Assembly (NCBI GenBank): GCA_016191385.1
Contig: JACPOT010000083.1
Span: 1 to 36,564, forward strand
Length of the DNA stretch: 36,564 nt
Direction of reading: 5' to 3'
Source: Chloroflexota bacterium
GTDB taxonomy: Bacteria > Chloroflexota > Limnocylindria > P2-11E
Shown here: piece by piece, positions 196 to 34,957 of the stretch
How the letters are laid out: the number at the start of each line of letters is the position of its first letter
How positions within the stretch are numbered: the stretch's first letter is position 1
Made by a program: the position numbers and the translations under genes
Notes under the pieces: generated by a model
Database searches by the model: none
Told to the model about the DNA's origin: nothing
The model's input: only the letters and a program-made list of their open reading frames with translations

Positions 196-812
196 CCGGT
201 CCCGAACTGCCGGTCGCCGGCGTCACCGAGGCCGGGGACGATGTAGCCCTTCTCGTTGAGGCGGTCGTCGAGCGCGGCGACGTGGATGGGGACGTCGGGA
301 TGCGCGTCGGACAGCGCCTTCACGCCCTCGGGTGCGGCGATGAGGCCGACGTATTTGATGCGCTTCGCGCCCCACTTCTCGAGGACGTCGATCGTCGCGA
401 CCGCCGATCCGCCCGTGGCGAGCATGGGATCGAGCACGAGGCACACCTGCACGGTCGCCTCGGTGGGGAGCTTGTTGTAGTACTCGATCGGCCGCAGCGT
501 CCGCTCGTCGCGGAAGAGGCCGATGTGCCACACCTGCGCCTCCGGCATGAGCGAGAGCGCAGCCTCCACCATCCCGATCCCGGCGCGCAGCACCGGGACG
601 AGCCCGACCTTCTCCCGAAGGCGCGAGCCGGTCCACGGCGCGAGCGGCGTGTCGACCTTGCGGTCCTCGAGAGCGAGATCGGCCGTCGCCTCGTAGAGCA
701 CGAGCGTCGCGATCTCATGTACCAGGCGGCGGAACTCGGGCGGCGGCGTCGTGGTGTCGCGGAGACGCGTGAGCTTCTCGCGGACCAGAGGATGCCGCGA
801 GACGTTGATCAC
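192..812 (-). CDS. upp: Uracil phosphoribosyltransferase
   Basis: INVSRHPLVREKLTRLRDTTTPPPEFRRLVHEIATLVLYEAT...LVPVLRAGIGMVEA...LDPMLATGGSA; full-length UPRT. Confidence 0.95.
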   Translation of the reverse strand: MINVSRHPLVREKLTRLRDTTTPPPEFRRLVHEIATLVLYEATADLALEDRKVDTPLAPWTGSRLREKVGLVPVLRAGIGMVEAALSLMPEAQVWHIGLFRDERTLRPIEYYNKLPTEATVQVCLVLDPMLATGGSAVATIDVLEKWGAKRIKYVGLIAAPEGVKALSDAHPDVPIHVAALDDRLNEKGYIVPGLGDAGDRQFGTG

Positions 813-1808
813 GCGCGCGCGTGCTCGCGCGTGATGCCCGGGACCGGATAACGCGCGGTGAGCTCGAGGACCTCGGCCGCGATCGACGCGAGAGCGGCTT
901 CGTCGCCCTTCGAGCGAAGGGTGCGGGCGATGAGGGCGCCGATGCGCTTCATCTCCGCCTCCCTCATGCCGCGCGTCGTCACCGCGGGTGTCCCGACGCG
1001 GATGCCCGAGGCGATCGCGGGCTTGTTGGTGTCATAGGGGATGGTGTTCTTGTTGACGGTGATGTTCACGGCGTCGAGCGCTTTCTCCGCGTCGCGGCCC
1101 GTCGTTCCGGCCGCGCAGCGTCTTGTGCGTCGTCGTCGTGACCACGTGCGAGTGCGGCACGGGGTTCGGATGCTCGCCGGCCGCGACGAGCCCGGCGAAG
1201 TGGGCCATGTCGGTGACGAGCAAAGCGTCGACCTCGTCGGCGATCTCGCGCAGCAGCCGGAAGTCCCAGAAGCGGGGGTACGCGGTGGCCCCGGCGACGA
1301 TCACGCGCGGCCGGTGCTCGCGTGCGAGCGAGCGGATCTCGTCGTAGTCGAGCGTCTCGGTATCGCGCTTCACGTGGTAGGGGATGAACTTGTAGAGCTG
1401 CGCGGAGAAGTTCACCGGCGACCCGTGCGTGAGGTGGCCACCCTGGTCGAGCGCGAGGCCGAGGAACGTGTCGCCCGGCTTCGCGATCGCCGCGTACGCG
1501 GCCATGTTGGCCTGCGCGCCGGCGTGCGGCTGCACGTTGGCGTGCTCCGCGCCGAAGAGCGCCTTCGCGCGCTCGATCGCGAGCGTCTCGGCGACGTCGA
1601 CCCACTCGCAGCCGCCGTAGTAGCGCTTGCCTGGGTAGCCCTCGGCGTACTTGTTGGTGAGGACGCTGCCGACAGCCTCGAGAACGGCCGCGCTCGTGTA
1701 GTTCTCGGAGGCGATGAGCTCGATCTTCTCGACCTGGCGCTGCTCCTCGTTCCGCATCGCGGCGTACAGCTCGGGATCCGTGTGCTCGACGTGCGACAGG
1801 TCGGTCAT
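809..1808 (-). pseudogene. glyA: Serine hydroxymethyltransferase, disrupted: internal deletion of roughly 100 codons plus frame change near 1100
   Basis: N-part ...[13 protein letters not shown] then C-part in another frame ([44 protein letters not shown]); segment between these conserved blocks is absent. Confidence 0.85.
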
Positions 1809-2257
1809 GTCCTGACCTCCCTTTTCTCCAGCGCCATGATCTGCTCGCGCCGGCGGGCGTGGCGACCGCCTTCGGGCTTCGCGCTCATATAGGCGTCCAC
1901 GATGCTCTTCGCGACCTCGCTGCCGATCACGCGCTGGCCGAGCGTCAGCAGGTTCACGTCCACGTGCGAGACCGCGTCGCGCGCCGACCACTCGTCGGTC
2001 ACGACGGCGGCGCGAACGCCCGGGATCTTGTTGGCCGCGACGGCCGGGCCGATGCCGGAGCCGCAGCAGAAGATGGCGCGCTCGACCTTCCCGCTTGCGA
2101 CCGCGTGAGCCAGCGGCACGACGATGAGCGGGTAGTCGTCGTCACCCGTCCGCGCGCCGTCGAAGTCCACGACCTCATGACCCTGAGCCTTGAGGTGCTT
2201 CCCGAGGATGTCGCGCAGCTCGACGCCGGCATGATCCGAGGCCATCCCGACCTTCAT
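1805..2257 (-). CDS. rpiB: Ribose-5-phosphate isomerase B
   Basis: [22 protein letters not shown]...[28 protein letters not shown] overlaps on both sides. Confidence 0.93.
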
Positions 2258-9117: not shown

Positions 9118-10961
9118 ACGACATCGTGCCCGCGTCGGCGCTCCGATTCGGCGGCAAGGACGCGTTCGTGATCAAGCCCGGCTTCCGCACACGCACATGG
9201 ACCTACCGCGACCTCGCCGACGTCGTCCCGCGCGCCGCGCAGGTGCTGGCCGGGGACGGGGTCCACAAGGGCGACCGCGTGCTCATCTGGGGCGTCAACC
9301 GTCCCCAATATGGGATCGCGTTCCTCGCCGCGCTCCATAGCGGAGCGGTGCTCGTCCCCATCGACGTCGGCTCGCTCACCGACTTCGCACAGCGGATCGC
9401 GGAGCGCACGCGCGCGAACGCCGCCATCGTCTCTTCGCAGACGCGCGAGCGGGCCCGCGCTCTCGGCCTGCGGCTGATCGAGATGGAGGCGCTGCCCGAT
9501 CGCGCGCGCGGCCGGGACCCGCTCCCTGCGGCCGACGTCGCCGCCGACGACCTCGCGGAGGTGGTCTTCACCAGCGGGACGACGGGCGACCCCAAGGGCG
9601 CGATGCTCACCCACCGCAACATCCTTTCGAACGCGATGGCCGCGACGGAGATCTTCCCCATCGGACCGGAGCAGCGGCTGCTCTCGTTCATCCCGCTCTC
9701 GCACATGTTCGAGCAGCTCGCGGGCTTCTGGACCGTGCTGCTCTCGGGGGCCAGCGTCGTGTACCCCACGAGCCGCCAGCCCACGGTCGTGCGGCGAACG
9801 TTCCGCGAGAGGAAGGTCTCGATGATCCTCATCACTCCCGCGGTCGTTCGCTCGCTGCTGCTCGCCATCGAGCGCAACGCCGAAGCGCAGGGCCGCGGGC
9901 CGCTGCTTCGCAAGCTGCGCCGCTTCGCGCGGCGCCTGCCGATGCGCGCGCGGCGGATCCTGTTCACCAGCGTGCACCGCCAGTTCGGCGGGCGGTTCCG
10001 CTACATCGTCTCGGGCGGAGCGGCGCTGGATCCCGCACTGGGCCAGGCCTGGGCCGAGCTCGGCATCGACGTCCTCCACGGATACGGAACGACCGAATGC
10101 GCGCCCGCCGTGACCTTCAACCGCCTCGACCGCAACCGCCTCGGATCCGTCGGCGTGCCGCTCCCCGGCGTCGACGTGCGCATCGCTCCGGATGCGGAGG
10201 TCCTCGTGCGCGGGCCGAACGTCTTCAAGGGGTACTGGGAGAACGACGAAGCGACGCGCGCGGTGCTCGATGCGGACGGCTGGTACCACACGGGCGATCT
10301 CGGGGAGATCGACAAGGACGGATTCCTGTGGCTGCGCGGACGGAAGAAGGACATCATCGTCCTCGCCGACGGACTCAACGTGTACCCCGAGGACATCGAG
10401 AACGTCCTCGCCGCGGATGCGCGCATCCAGGCGGCGGCGACGCCGCAGCGTCCCGCCATCGCCACTGTCGTGGGCCTCCAGCGTTCGGGCGAAGAGGTCC
10501 AGGTGCACGCCGTCTTCCTGCTGAAGGACGAGCGCCTCGTGCGGGCCATCGTTCGCGACGCCAACACGAAGCTGAGCGGAAGCCAACAGATCCGCGGCTG
10601 GAGCATCTGGCCCGACGACGACTTCCCGACGACCCCGACGCAGAAGGTGAAGAAGCGCTTCGTGATCGAGCGGCTGCTCGAGCTCGGCCGGGCGGAGACC
10701 GCACCGGCCCCCGCCGCGGGAACGCCGGCACGCGCTCTCTCCGACGTGGAGCGCCTCGTGTCGCAGGTCGCCGAGGTCCCGGACGTTCGCGTCGTCGCCG
10801 AGGCGCAGCTCTCCGCGGACCTCGGCCTCGACTCTCTTCAGCGCGTGGAGCTGCTCGGCCTGATAAGGAGGAGCTGGGCACGTACATCGACGACGCGGCG
10901 CTCGATCCGAACGCGACCGTCGCCGATCTCGAGCGGATGGTCGCGAGCACGCGCGACCTGA
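9114..10961 (+). CDS. Long-chain acyl-CoA/AMP-dependent synthetase with C-terminal acyl-carrier domain; N-terminal part of a frameshifted ligase-ACP-acyltransferase gene
   Basis: VVFTSGTTGDPKGAMLTHRN...GYGTTECAP...WYHTGDLGEIDKDGFLWLRGRKKDIIVLADGLNVYPEDIE; then LSADLGLDSLQRVELLGLI (Ppant serine motif). Start uncertain (CTG 9114 or GTG 9126). Confidence 0.85.
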   Translation: MNDIVPASALRFGGKDAFVIKPGFRTRTWTYRDLADVVPRAAQVLAGDGVHKGDRVLIWGVNRPQYGIAFLAALHSGAVLVPIDVGSLTDFAQRIAERTRANAAIVSSQTRERARALGLRLIEMEALPDRARGRDPLPAADVAADDLAEVVFTSGTTGDPKGAMLTHRNILSNAMAATEIFPIGPEQRLLSFIPLSHMFEQLAGFWTVLLSGASVVYPTSRQPTVVRRTFRERKVSMILITPAVVRSLLLAIERNAEAQGRGPLLRKLRRFARRLPMRARRILFTSVHRQFGGRFRYIVSGGAALDPALGQAWAELGIDVLHGYGTTECAPAVTFNRLDRNRLGSVGVPLPGVDVRIAPDAEVLVRGPNVFKGYWENDEATRAVLDADGWYHTGDLGEIDKDGFLWLRGRKKDIIVLADGLNVYPEDIENVLAADARIQAAATPQRPAIATVVGLQRSGEEVQVHAVFLLKDERLVRAIVRDANTKLSGSQQIRGWSIWPDDDFPTTPTQKVKKRFVIERLLELGRAETAPAPAAGTPARALSDVERLVSQVAEVPDVRVVAEAQLSADLGLDSLQRVELLGLIRRSWARTSTTRRSIRTRPSPISSGWSRARAT

Positions 10962-24386: not shown

Positions 24387-24856
24387 TGGCGCGGATCTCA
24401 TACAAGGAGGGCACCTCGTCCTTCCGCCGGCTGCTGAACCACAGCCCCGAGGTCTCCGAGGCGTACTGGGGGCTGCGCGACGCGCTGAACGCCGGCGTCC
24501 TCACGCCGAAGATCCGCACGCTGTCGTTCCTGGCGTGCGACATCACCAACCACTGCCGCTACTGAACGAAGGCACATACCGCCTCGGGCCGTGCGCTCGG
24601 GATCACCCAGGAGATGGTCGAGGCGATCCCCGACCATTTCGAGCGAAGCGAGGCGTTCACGGACGCCGAGAAGGCCGTGGTCGCGGCATCCGTCGAGCTC
24701 ACGAAGAAGGCGGAGCTCTCCAATGAGGCCTTCGACCGCCTCGCGAAGCATTTCGACGAGCGCCAGCTCGTGGAGCTGGTCATGAACATAGGCGTCGCGA
24801 ACATGAACAACCGCGTCACCGACGCGTTCTGGGCAGACATCGAGGACGCCGAATAG
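24386..24856 (+). CDS. AhpD/carboxymuconolactone decarboxylase-family protein, probable selenoprotein (Sec60 encoded by TGA 24563..24565)
   Basis: ORFs 24386..24565 and 24614..24856 share a frame separated only by TGA: ...LACDITNHCRY[U]TKAHTASGRALGITQEMVEAIPDHFERSEAFTDAEKAVVAASVELTKKAELSNEAFDRLAKHFDERQLVELVMNIGVANMNNRVTDAFWADIEDAE; TGA replaces second Cys of CxxC. Confidence 0.75.
24567..24625 (+). promoter_or_regulatory. Candidate bacterial SECIS hairpin region just downstream of the TGA
   Basis: Two alternative hairpins by eye: 24567..24599 (CGA/TCG + GCAC/GTGC + CC/GG, loop GCCTCG) and 24580..24625 (perfect 7-bp CGCCTCG/CGAGGCG). Not folded computationally. Confidence 0.35.
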
Positions 24857-25887
24857 CGATCACCTCCCAGGCGCGGGCGGCCATCGACGCCGCCATCGGG
24901 ACCGTGTGCACCGCGTGCGTGCTTCTCGTCGAGCAGGCCGGCCAGCGCGACGTCTACGCCGCCGGCACCCTCTGCCCCGATCCAGAAACCGGCCCCGACG
25001 CGCCGTGCGCTGAGACGAGCGTCTTCGATCTCGCGTCTCTCACGAAGCTGTTCACCACGGCACTCTGCCTGGCTCTCGTGCGCGAGCGCGTCCTCGCTCT
25101 CGACATGCCCTTCCGCGAGATCGTCCCCGACTTCCGCGGCGGCAAGAAGGACGAGGTCACGATCGCGCACGTGCTCACCCACACCGCGGGCCTGCTGTGG
25201 TGGAAGCCGATCTATAAGGAAGCCGCCACCATCGACGAGGCGGTGTGGCTCGCGGCCGAGGAGCCGCTCGCGCACGACCTCGGCACGTTCGTCTACAGCG
25301 ACCTGGGCTACATCATGCTGACCGCCGGCCTCGCGAAAGCCGGAGGCGCACCGTTCGCGGATCTCCTCAAGGATCGCGTGCTGGGTCCCATCGGCGCCGA
25401 GACCTGTGCGTTCGGCCCGCGACCGCCCGACGTGTGCGTCGCGACGGAACGCGACAGCGAGTGGCGCCGCAAGCGGCTGCGCGGCGAGGTCGACGATGAG
25501 AACGCCTACGCGATGGGCGGCACGTCAGGGCACGCGGGACTCTTCGGCACCGCGGCCGATGTCGCGGCCCTGGCGTCCGTGTACCGCGACGGCGCGGTCA
25601 TCGGCAACGAACTCGCGACGCTCGCGAGGCGCGAGCACGTTCGCCAGGGGATCGTGCGGCGCGGGCTGGGCCTTGCGCTCCGCGCGACCGAGGGCCCCAT
25701 GGTCGGCCGCCACTTCAGCGAGGACGCGTGGGGCCACACCGGCTTCACCGGCACGACGCTGTGGGCCGACCCGGCTCTCGACCTCACCGTGGTGCTCCTG
25801 ACGAACCGCGTGTATTTCGGCCGCGGTAACGACGAGGACGTCTACCGCTTCCGCATCGCGGTGCACGAGGCGGTCTCGGGTGGCTGA
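24853..25887 (+). CDS. Serine hydrolase, beta-lactamase/class C PBP family; likely ATA start at 24853
   Basis: ETSVFDLASLTKLFTTALCLALVRERVLALDMPFREIVPDF...VTIAHVLTHTAGLLWW; only canonical start is GTG 24904, which would trim (M)AITSQARAAIDAAIGT. Confidence 0.85.
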   Translation: MAITSQARAAIDAAIGTVCTACVLLVEQAGQRDVYAAGTLCPDPETGPDAPCAETSVFDLASLTKLFTTALCLALVRERVLALDMPFREIVPDFRGGKKDEVTIAHVLTHTAGLLWWKPIYKEAATIDEAVWLAAEEPLAHDLGTFVYSDLGYIMLTAGLAKAGGAPFADLLKDRVLGPIGAETCAFGPRPPDVCVATERDSEWRRKRLRGEVDDENAYAMGGTSGHAGLFGTAADVAALASVYRDGAVIGNELATLARREHVRQGIVRRGLGLALRATEGPMVGRHFSEDAWGHTGFTGTTLWADPALDLTVVLLTNRVYFGRGNDEDVYRFRIAVHEAVSGG

Positions 25888-31637: not shown

Positions 31638-32651
31638 ATGGAATTCGGCTTCACCCTCAAGCCCAACGTCGCCTTCGACCGCCTTGTCTCGCTGACGCGG
31701 CTCGCGGAGCGGAACGGCTTCGCGTACGGCTGGATCTTCGACAGCCACGTCCTCTGGAAGGAGGCCTACACGCTCCTCACGCTCATGGTCCAGAACACCG
31801 AGCGCATGCGTCTCGGCACGTGCGTCACCAACCCCGCCACGCGCGACCCGTCCGTGACCGCGAGCGCGCTCGCCGTCCTGCAGCTCCTCTCGAAGGGACG
31901 TATGGACCTGGGCATCGGGCGCGGCGACAGCGCGCGGCGGGTCATGGGCAAGAAGCCGACGACCCTCGAGGACCTCGAGCGCGCGACGCTGCTCATCCGC
32001 GACCTCTGCGAGGGCCGCGAAGCCGATCACGAGGGCACGCGCATCCGCCTCGACTGGGCCGGGCCGTACGACCTGCCGGCGTGGATCGCCGGCTACGGGC
32101 CGAAGGCGCTCGCGATCACGGGGCGGGTGGCGGACGGCGCGATCATCCAGCTCGCTGACCCCAGCCTCGTCGGCTGGTGCGTAGGCCTCGCGCGTGACGG
32201 CGCGCGCGCGGCGGGCCGCGACGTGCGCGAGCTGCGGATCATGTCCGCGGCGCCCGCGCACGTCGGCAAGCGCGAGGCCGTCCGCGATCGCGTCCGCTGG
32301 TTCCCTGCCCTCGTGAGCAACCACGTCGTCGACCTCGTGAAGCGCTACGGCGAGTCGTCGCTCCCCGCGGACCTCACGGCGTACGTGCGCGGCCGGCCGG
32401 GGTACGACTACCAGCACCACGCGGAGTCGGGATCGTCCAATGCGGCGTTCGTGGACAACGAGTCCGTGGACCGCTTCTGCGTCATCGGTGAGGTCGAGGA
32501 GCACGTCGCGAAGCTGCGCGCGCTCGCCGCCGCGGGCGTCACGCAGTTCAATGTCTACCTCATGAGCGGCGAGGAGGAGAAGGTCCTCGAGGCCTACGGC
32601 CGCGAGATCATCCCGGCGCTGAAGGAGCTTCAGCCCAGCGCGATCGCCTGA
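31638..32651 (+). CDS. LLM-class (F420-dependent-type) oxidoreductase
   Basis: MEFGFTLKPNVAFDRLVSLTRLAERNGFAYGWIFDSHVLWKEAYTLLTLMVQNTERMRLGTCVTNPATRDPSVTASALAVLQLLSKGRMDLGIGRGD. Confidence 0.9.
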   Translation: MEFGFTLKPNVAFDRLVSLTRLAERNGFAYGWIFDSHVLWKEAYTLLTLMVQNTERMRLGTCVTNPATRDPSVTASALAVLQLLSKGRMDLGIGRGDSARRVMGKKPTTLEDLERATLLIRDLCEGREADHEGTRIRLDWAGPYDLPAWIAGYGPKALAITGRVADGAIIQLADPSLVGWCVGLARDGARAAGRDVRELRIMSAAPAHVGKREAVRDRVRWFPALVSNHVVDLVKRYGESSLPADLTAYVRGRPGYDYQHHAESGSSNAAFVDNESVDRFCVIGEVEEHVAKLRALAAAGVTQFNVYLMSGEEEKVLEAYGREIIPALKELQPSAIA

Positions 32652-32654
32652 CCG

Positions 32655-33089
32655 CTACTCGGGGACGGTCACGTCGGTACCGTCGTGCTGGATCACGGCG
32701 AGCCCTGGGATGTCGTACTGGTCGCGGTCAAGCGTCGCGAGAGGAAGTCCGTATCGCTTGGCGGTCGCCGCGATCCAGAGATCGTTGTCGTTCTTGGAAC
32801 GCCCAAGCCTGTCGCAACGGACGCGCATACGTGCCCACTCCTCGGCGATGTCGCGGTCGATCGATAGGGCGACGTACAGCCGCAGATGGTCTTCGAGCTC
32901 GCGCGTTCTGCGCTCGCCGAAGCTCGCCGCGATCGCCCCGCGCTTGAGCTCAGCCACGGTGACCACGGACACTCCCAGTAGGTCCACCGTGAGGCGGGCC
33001 TTTATCAGGGAGACACGCCCGTCCTCTCGAAGCGTGGAGGAGACGACGGACGTGTCGCACAGGACGGTCGGCGCGGGCTCTTGGGCTAT
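32655..33089 (-). CDS. PIN-domain (VapC-like) toxin; likely ATA start at 33089
   Basis: (M)AQEPAPTVLCDTSVVSSTLREDGRVSLIKARLTVDLLGVSVVTVAELKRGA...KNDNDLWIAATAKRYGLPLATLDRDQYD; first catalytic Asp (CDTS) lies upstream of the first canonical start, GTG 32987. Confidence 0.85.
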   Translation of the reverse strand: MAQEPAPTVLCDTSVVSSTLREDGRVSLIKARLTVDLLGVSVVTVAELKRGAIAASFGERRTRELEDHLRLYVALSIDRDIAEEWARMRVRCDRLGRSKNDNDLWIAATAKRYGLPLATLDRDQYDIPGLAVIQHDGTDVTVPE

Positions 33090-33529
33090 ATCTTTTCAGG
33101 CTCGGTCTGTTCGCGCGCGAGCATCTCGTGCTCCATGCGCTCGAACTCGTCCATGGCGCGACCAAAGGCCTCCCGCTCTTCCTTGGTCAGCCGCGGAAGG
33201 TTCAGCGGAGGAAAGCCCTGTGGCTTGGTGATGCCTTGCGCCTTCGCGATCGACGCGAGGTCGTTGTTCCCCCACACGCCCTGCGGAAGCAGCTTCTTGT
33301 CCCAGGTGAGCTGTTCGCCCACACGGAACTTCCCTCCGAGAAGCGTCTCCATCTGTATCTGGAAGCGCTTGGACCCGGGGTGGTCACCGCGGATGACGCG
33401 ACGGATGTGCTCGACCGTGTACCCAGAGCGCTCCGCCAGCTCCGCCACCGTAAGGCCGCGCCGCTCCATGAGCTCCCGCATCGTCGGAAGCTCATTCGTC
33501 GTTCCCGAACGTGTCTTTCGCAACACCAT
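33086..33529 (-). CDS. XRE-family HTH protein, putative antitoxin of the PIN toxin
   Basis: MRELMERRGLTVAELAERSGYTVEHIRRVIRGDHPGSKRFQIQMETLLGGKF; ends ...PEKI-TAG. Confidence 0.8.
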   Translation of the reverse strand: MVLRKTRSGTTNELPTMRELMERRGLTVAELAERSGYTVEHIRRVIRGDHPGSKRFQIQMETLLGGKFRVGEQLTWDKKLLPQGVWGNNDLASIAKAQGITKPQGFPPLNLPRLTKEEREAFGRAMDEFERMEHEMLAREQTEPEKI

Positions 33530-33547
33530 GCAGTGACAGGGTATCGG

Positions 33548-34957
33548 CTAGGTCTGGAGGAGAGGGCTCCCGCGCTTGATGAACCGCCCCCGGCCCTTCT
33601 TCCCTAAGAACCTGCCGTCGTCGACGATCACTTCGCCGCGCGAGAGGACGGTCGTGGCCTTGCCCTTCACCTTGCGGCCCTCGTAAGGGCTGTAGTCGAC
33701 GCGCATGTGATGCGTCTTGGCGGAGAGCGTCTGCGTCGCCTTCGGGTCCCAGATGACGATATCGGCGTCGCTCCCGGCCGCGATCGTCCCCTTCCTCGGG
33801 AACATGCCCATGATCTTCGCGGGGCTCGTCGAGCACAGCTCGATCCAGCGGTTGAGCGTGATGCGCCCGCCCACGACGCCGCCGTCGAAGAGCAGGACCA
33901 TCCGTGTCTCGACCCCCGGCGCGCCGTTCGGGATCTTGGAGAAGTCGCCCTTGCCGAGCTCCTTCTGCTTGGGCAGCCCCGCGAAGCCCTCCTTCATGCA
34001 GAAGGGGCAGTGGTCGGTGCTCACGACCTGCAGGTCGTTGCGCGCGAGACCCTTCCACAGCTCGTCCTGGTGCCACTTCGGGCGCAGCGGCGGCGACATG
34101 ACGTACTTGGCGCCGTCGAAGCCGGGCTCCTCGTAGTTGTCGTAGGAGAGGAAGAGGTACTGAGGGCAGGTCTCCGCGTACGCCGGGAGCCCGCGGTCGC
34201 GGAACTGCCGCACCTGCTCGAGCGCCTGCGATGCCGAGAGGTGGACGATGTACAGCGGCACGCCGCCGGCCATCTCCGCGAGCTTGAACGCCCGTCCCGT
34301 CGCTTCACCTTCGGCCTCCGGGGGCCGCGTGAGCGCGTGCCACTTGGGCTCGGTCTTGCGCTCGGCGAGCGCCTTCTTCACGAGGACGTCGATGACCCCG
34401 CCGTTCTCGGCGTGCATGCAGATGAGGCCGCCCACCTCGGCCGATCGCACGAGCGCTTTGAAGATCGAGGCGTCATCGACCATGAACACGCCGGGGTAGG
34501 CCATGAAGAGCTTGAAGCTCGACACGCCCTCGCCGACCATCGTGCCCATCTCCCTGATGACCTTGTCGGAGACGTCACGCACGATCATGTGCAGCCCGTA
34601 GTCGATGACGGCCTTGCCACGCGCCTTCCCGAGCCACGCGTCGCGCGCCTTTTCGAGAGGCTCGCCGAACCCCTGGACCGCGAAGTCCACGATGCTCGTC
34701 GTCCCGCCGAACGCCGCGGCCACGGTTCCGGTGTGGAAATCGTCCGAGGCCATGGTCCCGCCGAACGGCAGCTCCATGTGGGTATGCACATCGATGCCGC
34801 CCGGGATGACGTACTTCCGCGAGGCATCGATCTTCTTCGCCCCGCTCGCCTTGAGGTCCGTCCCCACGGCCACGACCTTCTCGCCGTCGATGAGCACGTC
34901 GGCCTTGTGCGTGTCGGTGGCGGTCACGACGGTGCCGCCCTGGATGAGGGTCCTCAT
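33548..34957 (-). CDS. Dihydropyrimidinase/D-hydantoinase
   Basis: LIQGGTVVTATDTHKADVLIDGEKVVAVG...YVIPGGIDVHTHMELPFGGTMASDDFHTGT...VSTDHCPF. Confidence 0.95.
   Translation of the reverse strand: MRTLIQGGTVVTATDTHKADVLIDGEKVVAVGTDLKASGAKKIDASRKYVIPGGIDVHTHMELPFGGTMASDDFHTGTVAAAFGGTTSIVDFAVQGFGEPLEKARDAWLGKARGKAVIDYGLHMIVRDVSDKVIREMGTMVGEGVSSFKLFMAYPGVFMVDDASIFKALVRSAEVGGLICMHAENGGVIDVLVKKALAERKTEPKWHALTRPPEAEGEATGRAFKLAEMAGGVPLYIVHLSASQALEQVRQFRDRGLPAYAETCPQYLFLSYDNYEEPGFDGAKYVMSPPLRPKWHQDELWKGLARNDLQVVSTDHCPFCMKEGFAGLPKQKELGKGDFSKIPNGAPGVETRMVLLFDGGVVGGRITLNRWIELCSTSPAKIMGMFPRKGTIAAGSDADIVIWDPKATQTLSAKTHHMRVDYSPYEGRKVKGKATTVLSRGEVIVDDGRFLGKKGRGRFIKRGSPLLQT

Follow-up and report, generated by a model that had tools for sequence, protein, structure and literature searches.

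Our analysis indicates that two overlapping genes on the minus strand of a 36,564-nt stretch of Chloroflexota DNA (the whole stretch analysed, referred to here as the window) are best explained as a toxin-antitoxin pair of the XRE-PIN (VapC-like) type, whose toxin is probably translated from an AUA codon through stop-start coupling. The anatomy of the junction, the lack of a canonical start codon and the occurrence of ATA, within the lineage, at the orthologous start of RsmI are established. Taken with the rarity of ATA and a further ATAG junction at a beta-lactamase-family gene, the ATA starts of RsmI make AUA initiation via stop-start coupling the favoured explanation.

The coordinates of the features are collected in Table 1. 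The XRE ORF ends in GAA AAG ATA TAG, and the PIN frame, following an in-frame TGA (33098-33096), reads AAA GAT ATA GCC CAA GAG CCC GCG CCG ACC GTC CTG TGC GAC, where the final GAC (33056-33054) encodes the catalytic Asp. As an earlier note on this DNA had claimed, the toxin-frame ATA overlaps the antitoxin stop and no ATG, GTG or TTG lies between the TGA and this Asp; the interval contains just two near-cognate codons, ATA 33089-33087 and a CTG, which the note had placed at 33059, a few bases away from its actual position at 33062-33060. The toxin ATA is distinct from the final ATA codon of the antitoxin (33091-33089), from which it is shifted by two bases, and has the same geometry as the common ATGA overlap, with the non-canonical AUA as the overlap codon. 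Since the first in-frame ATG, GTG or TTG is the GTG at 32987, past the Asp, automatic annotation would yield a truncated PIN protein of 110 amino acids. An A precedes the stop in 8.6% of the TAG-ending genes of the window's genome, so that ATA at this junction is not improbable by itself, and the unusual feature of the locus is the missing canonical start rather than the ATA at the overlap. In addition, the XRE and PIN genes contain more ATA than host genes, which makes an incidental ATA likelier there and counts against AUA initiation.

Table 1. Features of the XRE-PIN junction, its genomic slot and the second ATAG junction in the window.
Feature	Coordinates	Strand	Details or basis
PIN-domain (VapC/FitB-like) predicted toxin	32655..33089	-	144 aa if ATA-started; acidic Asp/Glu/Asp intact
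XRE-type (HTH_31/HTH_3) protein, putative antitoxin	33086..33529	-	147 aa; stop TAG 33088-33086
ATAG stop-start overlap	33086..33089	-	toxin ATA 33089-33087 over antitoxin TAG 33088-33086
TGA closing the PIN frame upstream	33096..33098	-	sequence
Near-cognate CTG	33060..33062	-	two codons 5' of catalytic Asp
A_AAG tetramer, potential -1 slippery site	33092..33095	-	sequence; PMC4066793
GTG, first canonical in-frame start of PIN frame	32985..32987	-	past catalytic Asp
Variable slot holding the XRE-PIN module	32652..33547	.	between LLM-type oxidoreductase 31638-32651 (+) and dihydropyrimidinase 33548-34957 (-)
Second ATAG junction: stop of an AhpD-like ORF overlapping the ATA of the beta-lactamase-family gene (24853-25887)	24853..24856	+	sequence

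The predicted toxin matches the PIN domain of Pfam PF01850 over its whole length (E=3.7e-15), its residues Asp12, Glu47 and Asp103 are invariant in a 10-sequence alignment, and the XRE protein matches HTH_31 (E=1.1e-7). Both the intact acidic positions of the PIN protein and the adjacent upstream gene for a putative DNA-binding antitoxin, as expected of a type II toxin-antitoxin system, were found. Like VapBC and FitAB, the pair combines a PF01850 domain with an antitoxin gene that comes first and a 4-nt overlap, and VapC/FitB chains are the nearest solved structures to the PIN protein; unlike VapBC and FitAB, the window's XRE partner is without known homologues and the toxin without a canonical start. 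PIN-Xre pairs have been described as under-represented (PMC2701414).

Homologues were sought in 177 genomes of the class and 400 genomes of the phylum, as well as among GTDB contigs, viral contigs and plasmids. No homologue of the XRE protein and no orthologue of the XRE-PIN pair turned up in these collections, and this lack of orthologues in which the PIN ATA could be conserved counts against AUA initiation. The PIN relatives that were recovered share only 30-48% identity with the window's protein. In 46 of 47 distinct relatives a canonical ATG, GTG or TTG lies at most 16 codons before the Asp, and 30 of these 46 show an xTGA 4-nt overlap with the upstream gene; in the remaining one (L006) the start, a TTG within a TTGA overlap, is located slightly farther upstream. 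One relative, among the best matches (L072), starts MSQPPPRDRVVVDTD in an ATGA overlap 12 codons before the Asp; comparably, the window's PIN protein would begin (M)AQEPAPTVLCDTS, at a distance of 11 codons from the Asp. None of the 47 relatives uses an ATA start. We count in favour of AUA initiation both the placement of the ATA in the same 4-nt geometry as the xTGA overlaps of these 30 relatives and the combination of an intact active site with the absence of a canonical start. A kinship between the XRE tail and the antitoxin tails of PIN relatives looked plausible by eye but gained no statistical support, the profile comparison showing no similarity.

The gene for RsmI, compared in 23 genomes of the window's family (loci L251-L273), is the key case for AUA initiation in this family, and a stronger one than PIN, which the earlier note had considered the strongest single case. 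The codon immediately before GKLYLVATPIGN is ATA in 7 of the 23 genomes, GTG in 10, ATG in 4 and TTG in 1, with one further genome carrying a GTG two codons earlier, so that the ATA occupies the very site of ATG, GTG or TTG in 15 others. No canonical start was found upstream of the ATA in G000, G002 and G006, and each of the seven genomes with ATA has its next canonical codon only inside the gene, 15-28 codons downstream and past the conserved first motif. Five of the seven (G002, G004, G005, G006 and G007) display an ATAG overlap with an upstream ORF, whose conserved end in these five is RRIVSWGLEGERRSATVRP followed by the stop. ATA is so rare in the window's genome (0.67 per 1000 codons; 0.13% of trinucleotides) that its presence at the RsmI start is not compositional, and its recurrence in seven separately assembled genomes cannot be accounted for by errors. 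Six of the seven belong to one genus, indicating few independent origins. Since the same family evidently uses AUA as the start of at least one other, unrelated conserved gene, the odd start of PIN is probably real. Moreover, RsmI has no need of toxin-style dosage control and yet is ATA-started, which speaks against a toxin-specific device.

The window itself holds a second ATAG junction, at a beta-lactamase-family gene whose expected N terminus lacks a canonical start; in the congeners G019-G022 this gene has a GTGA overlap, and its upstream gene differs from the window's AhpD-like ORF. Because two frame lesions in the window urge caution, the survey was widened to about 608 kb of the window's own genome, 300 kb of congeners and 242 kb of a control genome from another family of the same class. 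Coding ORFs lacking a canonical start in the vicinity made up 37 of 491 in the own genome and 20 of 275 in the congeners, compared to 4 of 196 in the control (Fisher p=0.005), an excess that we count in favour of AUA initiation. The figure of 37/491 does not give the number of non-canonical starts, given that the startless set includes the prfB programmed frameshift (L215), a frameshifted lipoprotein (L171) and antisense ORFs. Clean N termini in the startless set comprised RsmI with ATA and three genes with CTG in a CTGA overlap, namely a response regulator (LKLLVVDDD, L181 18661(-)), a glycosyltransferase (LTLSVILPAYNEA, L182 890(-)) and a second PIN protein (LTAEYLVDTS, LTAEYLVDTSAF, L193 3505(+)). 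The start of the dihydropyrimidinase gene is canonical in 16/16 genomes, which marks AUA as an exception and not a general change of the code. We also observed in the own genome a likely 3-methyladenine glycosylase with its expected N terminus at a CTG in CTGA (L163 4287(+)), and in the congener G020 an MreB-like N terminus, IFTKQIGIDLGTANV, at ATC with no canonical start near (L232 1379(-)).

To our knowledge, few bacterial genes are known to start at AUA. Those shown experimentally include infC, ccpN and citZ of Staphylococcus aureus, whose AUA starts reach about 10-30% of the output of AUG and depend on extended Shine-Dalgarno sequences (PMC13009471). These natural AUA starts count in favour of AUA initiation in the window, where PIN would share the start codon; the lowering of output is a feature of the S. 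aureus genes. Unlike them, the window's PIN gene has a stop-start overlap, and no Shine-Dalgarno sequence was detected before its ATA (-2.2 kcal/mol, compared to a background mean of -3.8), a difference that counts against AUA initiation. ATGA and GTGA overlaps are served by termination-reinitiation (PMC6728339, PMC10666635), and the PIN junction resembles them in its 4-nt overlap between adjacent, co-directed genes of one module, while differing from NUGA overlaps in its AUA start and UAG stop.

Re-initiation after termination on the overlapping UAG would be the simplest route to an AUA start. Having completed the antitoxin, a ribosome would step back by one base and start again on the AUA of the AUAG overlap. 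The usual CAU initiator tRNA would decode this AUA, as it does the starts of AUGA and GUGA overlaps, but less efficiently. Toxin would thus be made only once the antitoxin had been translated, and the antitoxin would be produced in excess. The earlier note had proposed that a poor AUA start coupled to antitoxin translation keeps toxin output low; AUA initiation is supported by the family-wide ATA starts of RsmI and the second ATAG junction, coupling agrees with the lack of a Shine-Dalgarno sequence and with the 4-nt overlap, and a toxic PIN protein kept below its antitoxin by such a dosage device may be the outcome. We rejected a UAU-anticodon initiator tRNA as the reader of AUA, since only the CAU type was found in 15 genomes, the remaining genomes being incomplete or off-pattern; the restriction to the CAU type counts against AUA initiation. 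A promoter scan found nothing. At L188 17559-17704, two tandem CAU tRNA genes overlap by one base, the second having a poorer anticodon stem.

With slightly less than even confidence, we extend this reading to the whole family, in which AUA (and CUG) may be working starts at AUAG and CUGA overlaps, independent of Shine-Dalgarno sequences and read by the CAU initiator tRNA, in conserved genes such as RsmI as well as in toxins, and missed by standard gene finders. AUA starts and 4-nt overlaps are each already known, and the part that seems new is their combination in AUAG, which was not found in a small literature search. If recurrent in one family, the AUAG overlap would show that coupling can replace both a Shine-Dalgarno sequence and a good start codon, and such starts would explain 'missing' N termini in automatic annotation. 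RsmI and PIN would also offer a simple, testable system for how strictly initiation factors police re-initiation.

The main rival, which we consider unlikely, is that the toxin start has been lost near the junction, either by real mutation in a decaying or silenced toxin or by assembly error, and it holds this place because the contig carries two frame lesions elsewhere. A conserved, fused AMP-ligase/acyltransferase gene, unbroken in G019, is split by a one-base deletion at 10864, and glyA (812-1811 (-)) lacks about 290 nt, with a change of frame near 1100, relative to four congeners, which reflects either deletion or misassembly. For instance, one A missing from the AAAA at 33096-33093 would fuse XRE and PIN into one open frame. 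This rival is also favoured by the draft state of the genome assembly, which is fragmented and 70% complete. Against it, the rest of the PIN frame is unbroken and keeps the conserved active-site positions, the ATA sits exactly in the 4-nt overlap geometry, no XRE-PIN fusions were seen among the PIN relatives, and the ATA starts of RsmI recur across separate assemblies. An ancestor with a standard ATG toxin start, one insertion or deletion away, was rejected because no single indel yields such an ATG in the right frame. Another lesion of the draft genome lies at L171 713-830, where a lipoprotein signal with a lipobox (VRGLALAAILIAGCS) is followed by a frame change.

A toxin start at CTG 33062-33060 appears very improbable. 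In its favour, the codon is near-cognate, and the own genome has CTG-like starts in CTGA overlaps that look real. A toxin started there, however, would have nothing but Met-Cys ahead of the catalytic Asp and would lose most of the first strand, and the codon lies off any stop-start overlap, with no Shine-Dalgarno sequence (-2.1); no PIN relative has its sole start so near the Asp. Marginally less probable still is a -1 ribosomal frameshift at A_AAG yielding an XRE-PIN fusion: this tetramer is the best -1 site in E. coli (PMC4066793) and lies within a 10-nt stretch open in both frames, PIN being in the -1 frame, but tetramers alone shift at only about 0.15% (PMC4066793). The slippery site is not accompanied by the close up- or downstream stimulator of programmed -1 frameshifts, with no Shine-Dalgarno sequence upstream and a stem-loop that does not start until about 35 nt downstream; this stem-loop (z -2.7) was rejected as a regulator or frameshift stimulator because 45% of sequence windows here are equally stable. 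Read-through of the TAG cannot reach the PIN frame.

Finally, the slot that holds the XRE-PIN module, in which the XRE ORF starts 18 nt after the dihydropyrimidinase stop, was compared in congeners (L062, L063). In the sister genome G022 the same slot carries a different PIN-toxin module on the opposite strand with a TTGA overlap, and in G020 it carries a DinB-like gene and an ATPase-like gene. This difference in cargo between sister genomes marks the XRE-PIN module as exchangeable cargo. The GC content at third codon positions is lower in the module than in the neighbouring genes, a composition that is consistent with import.
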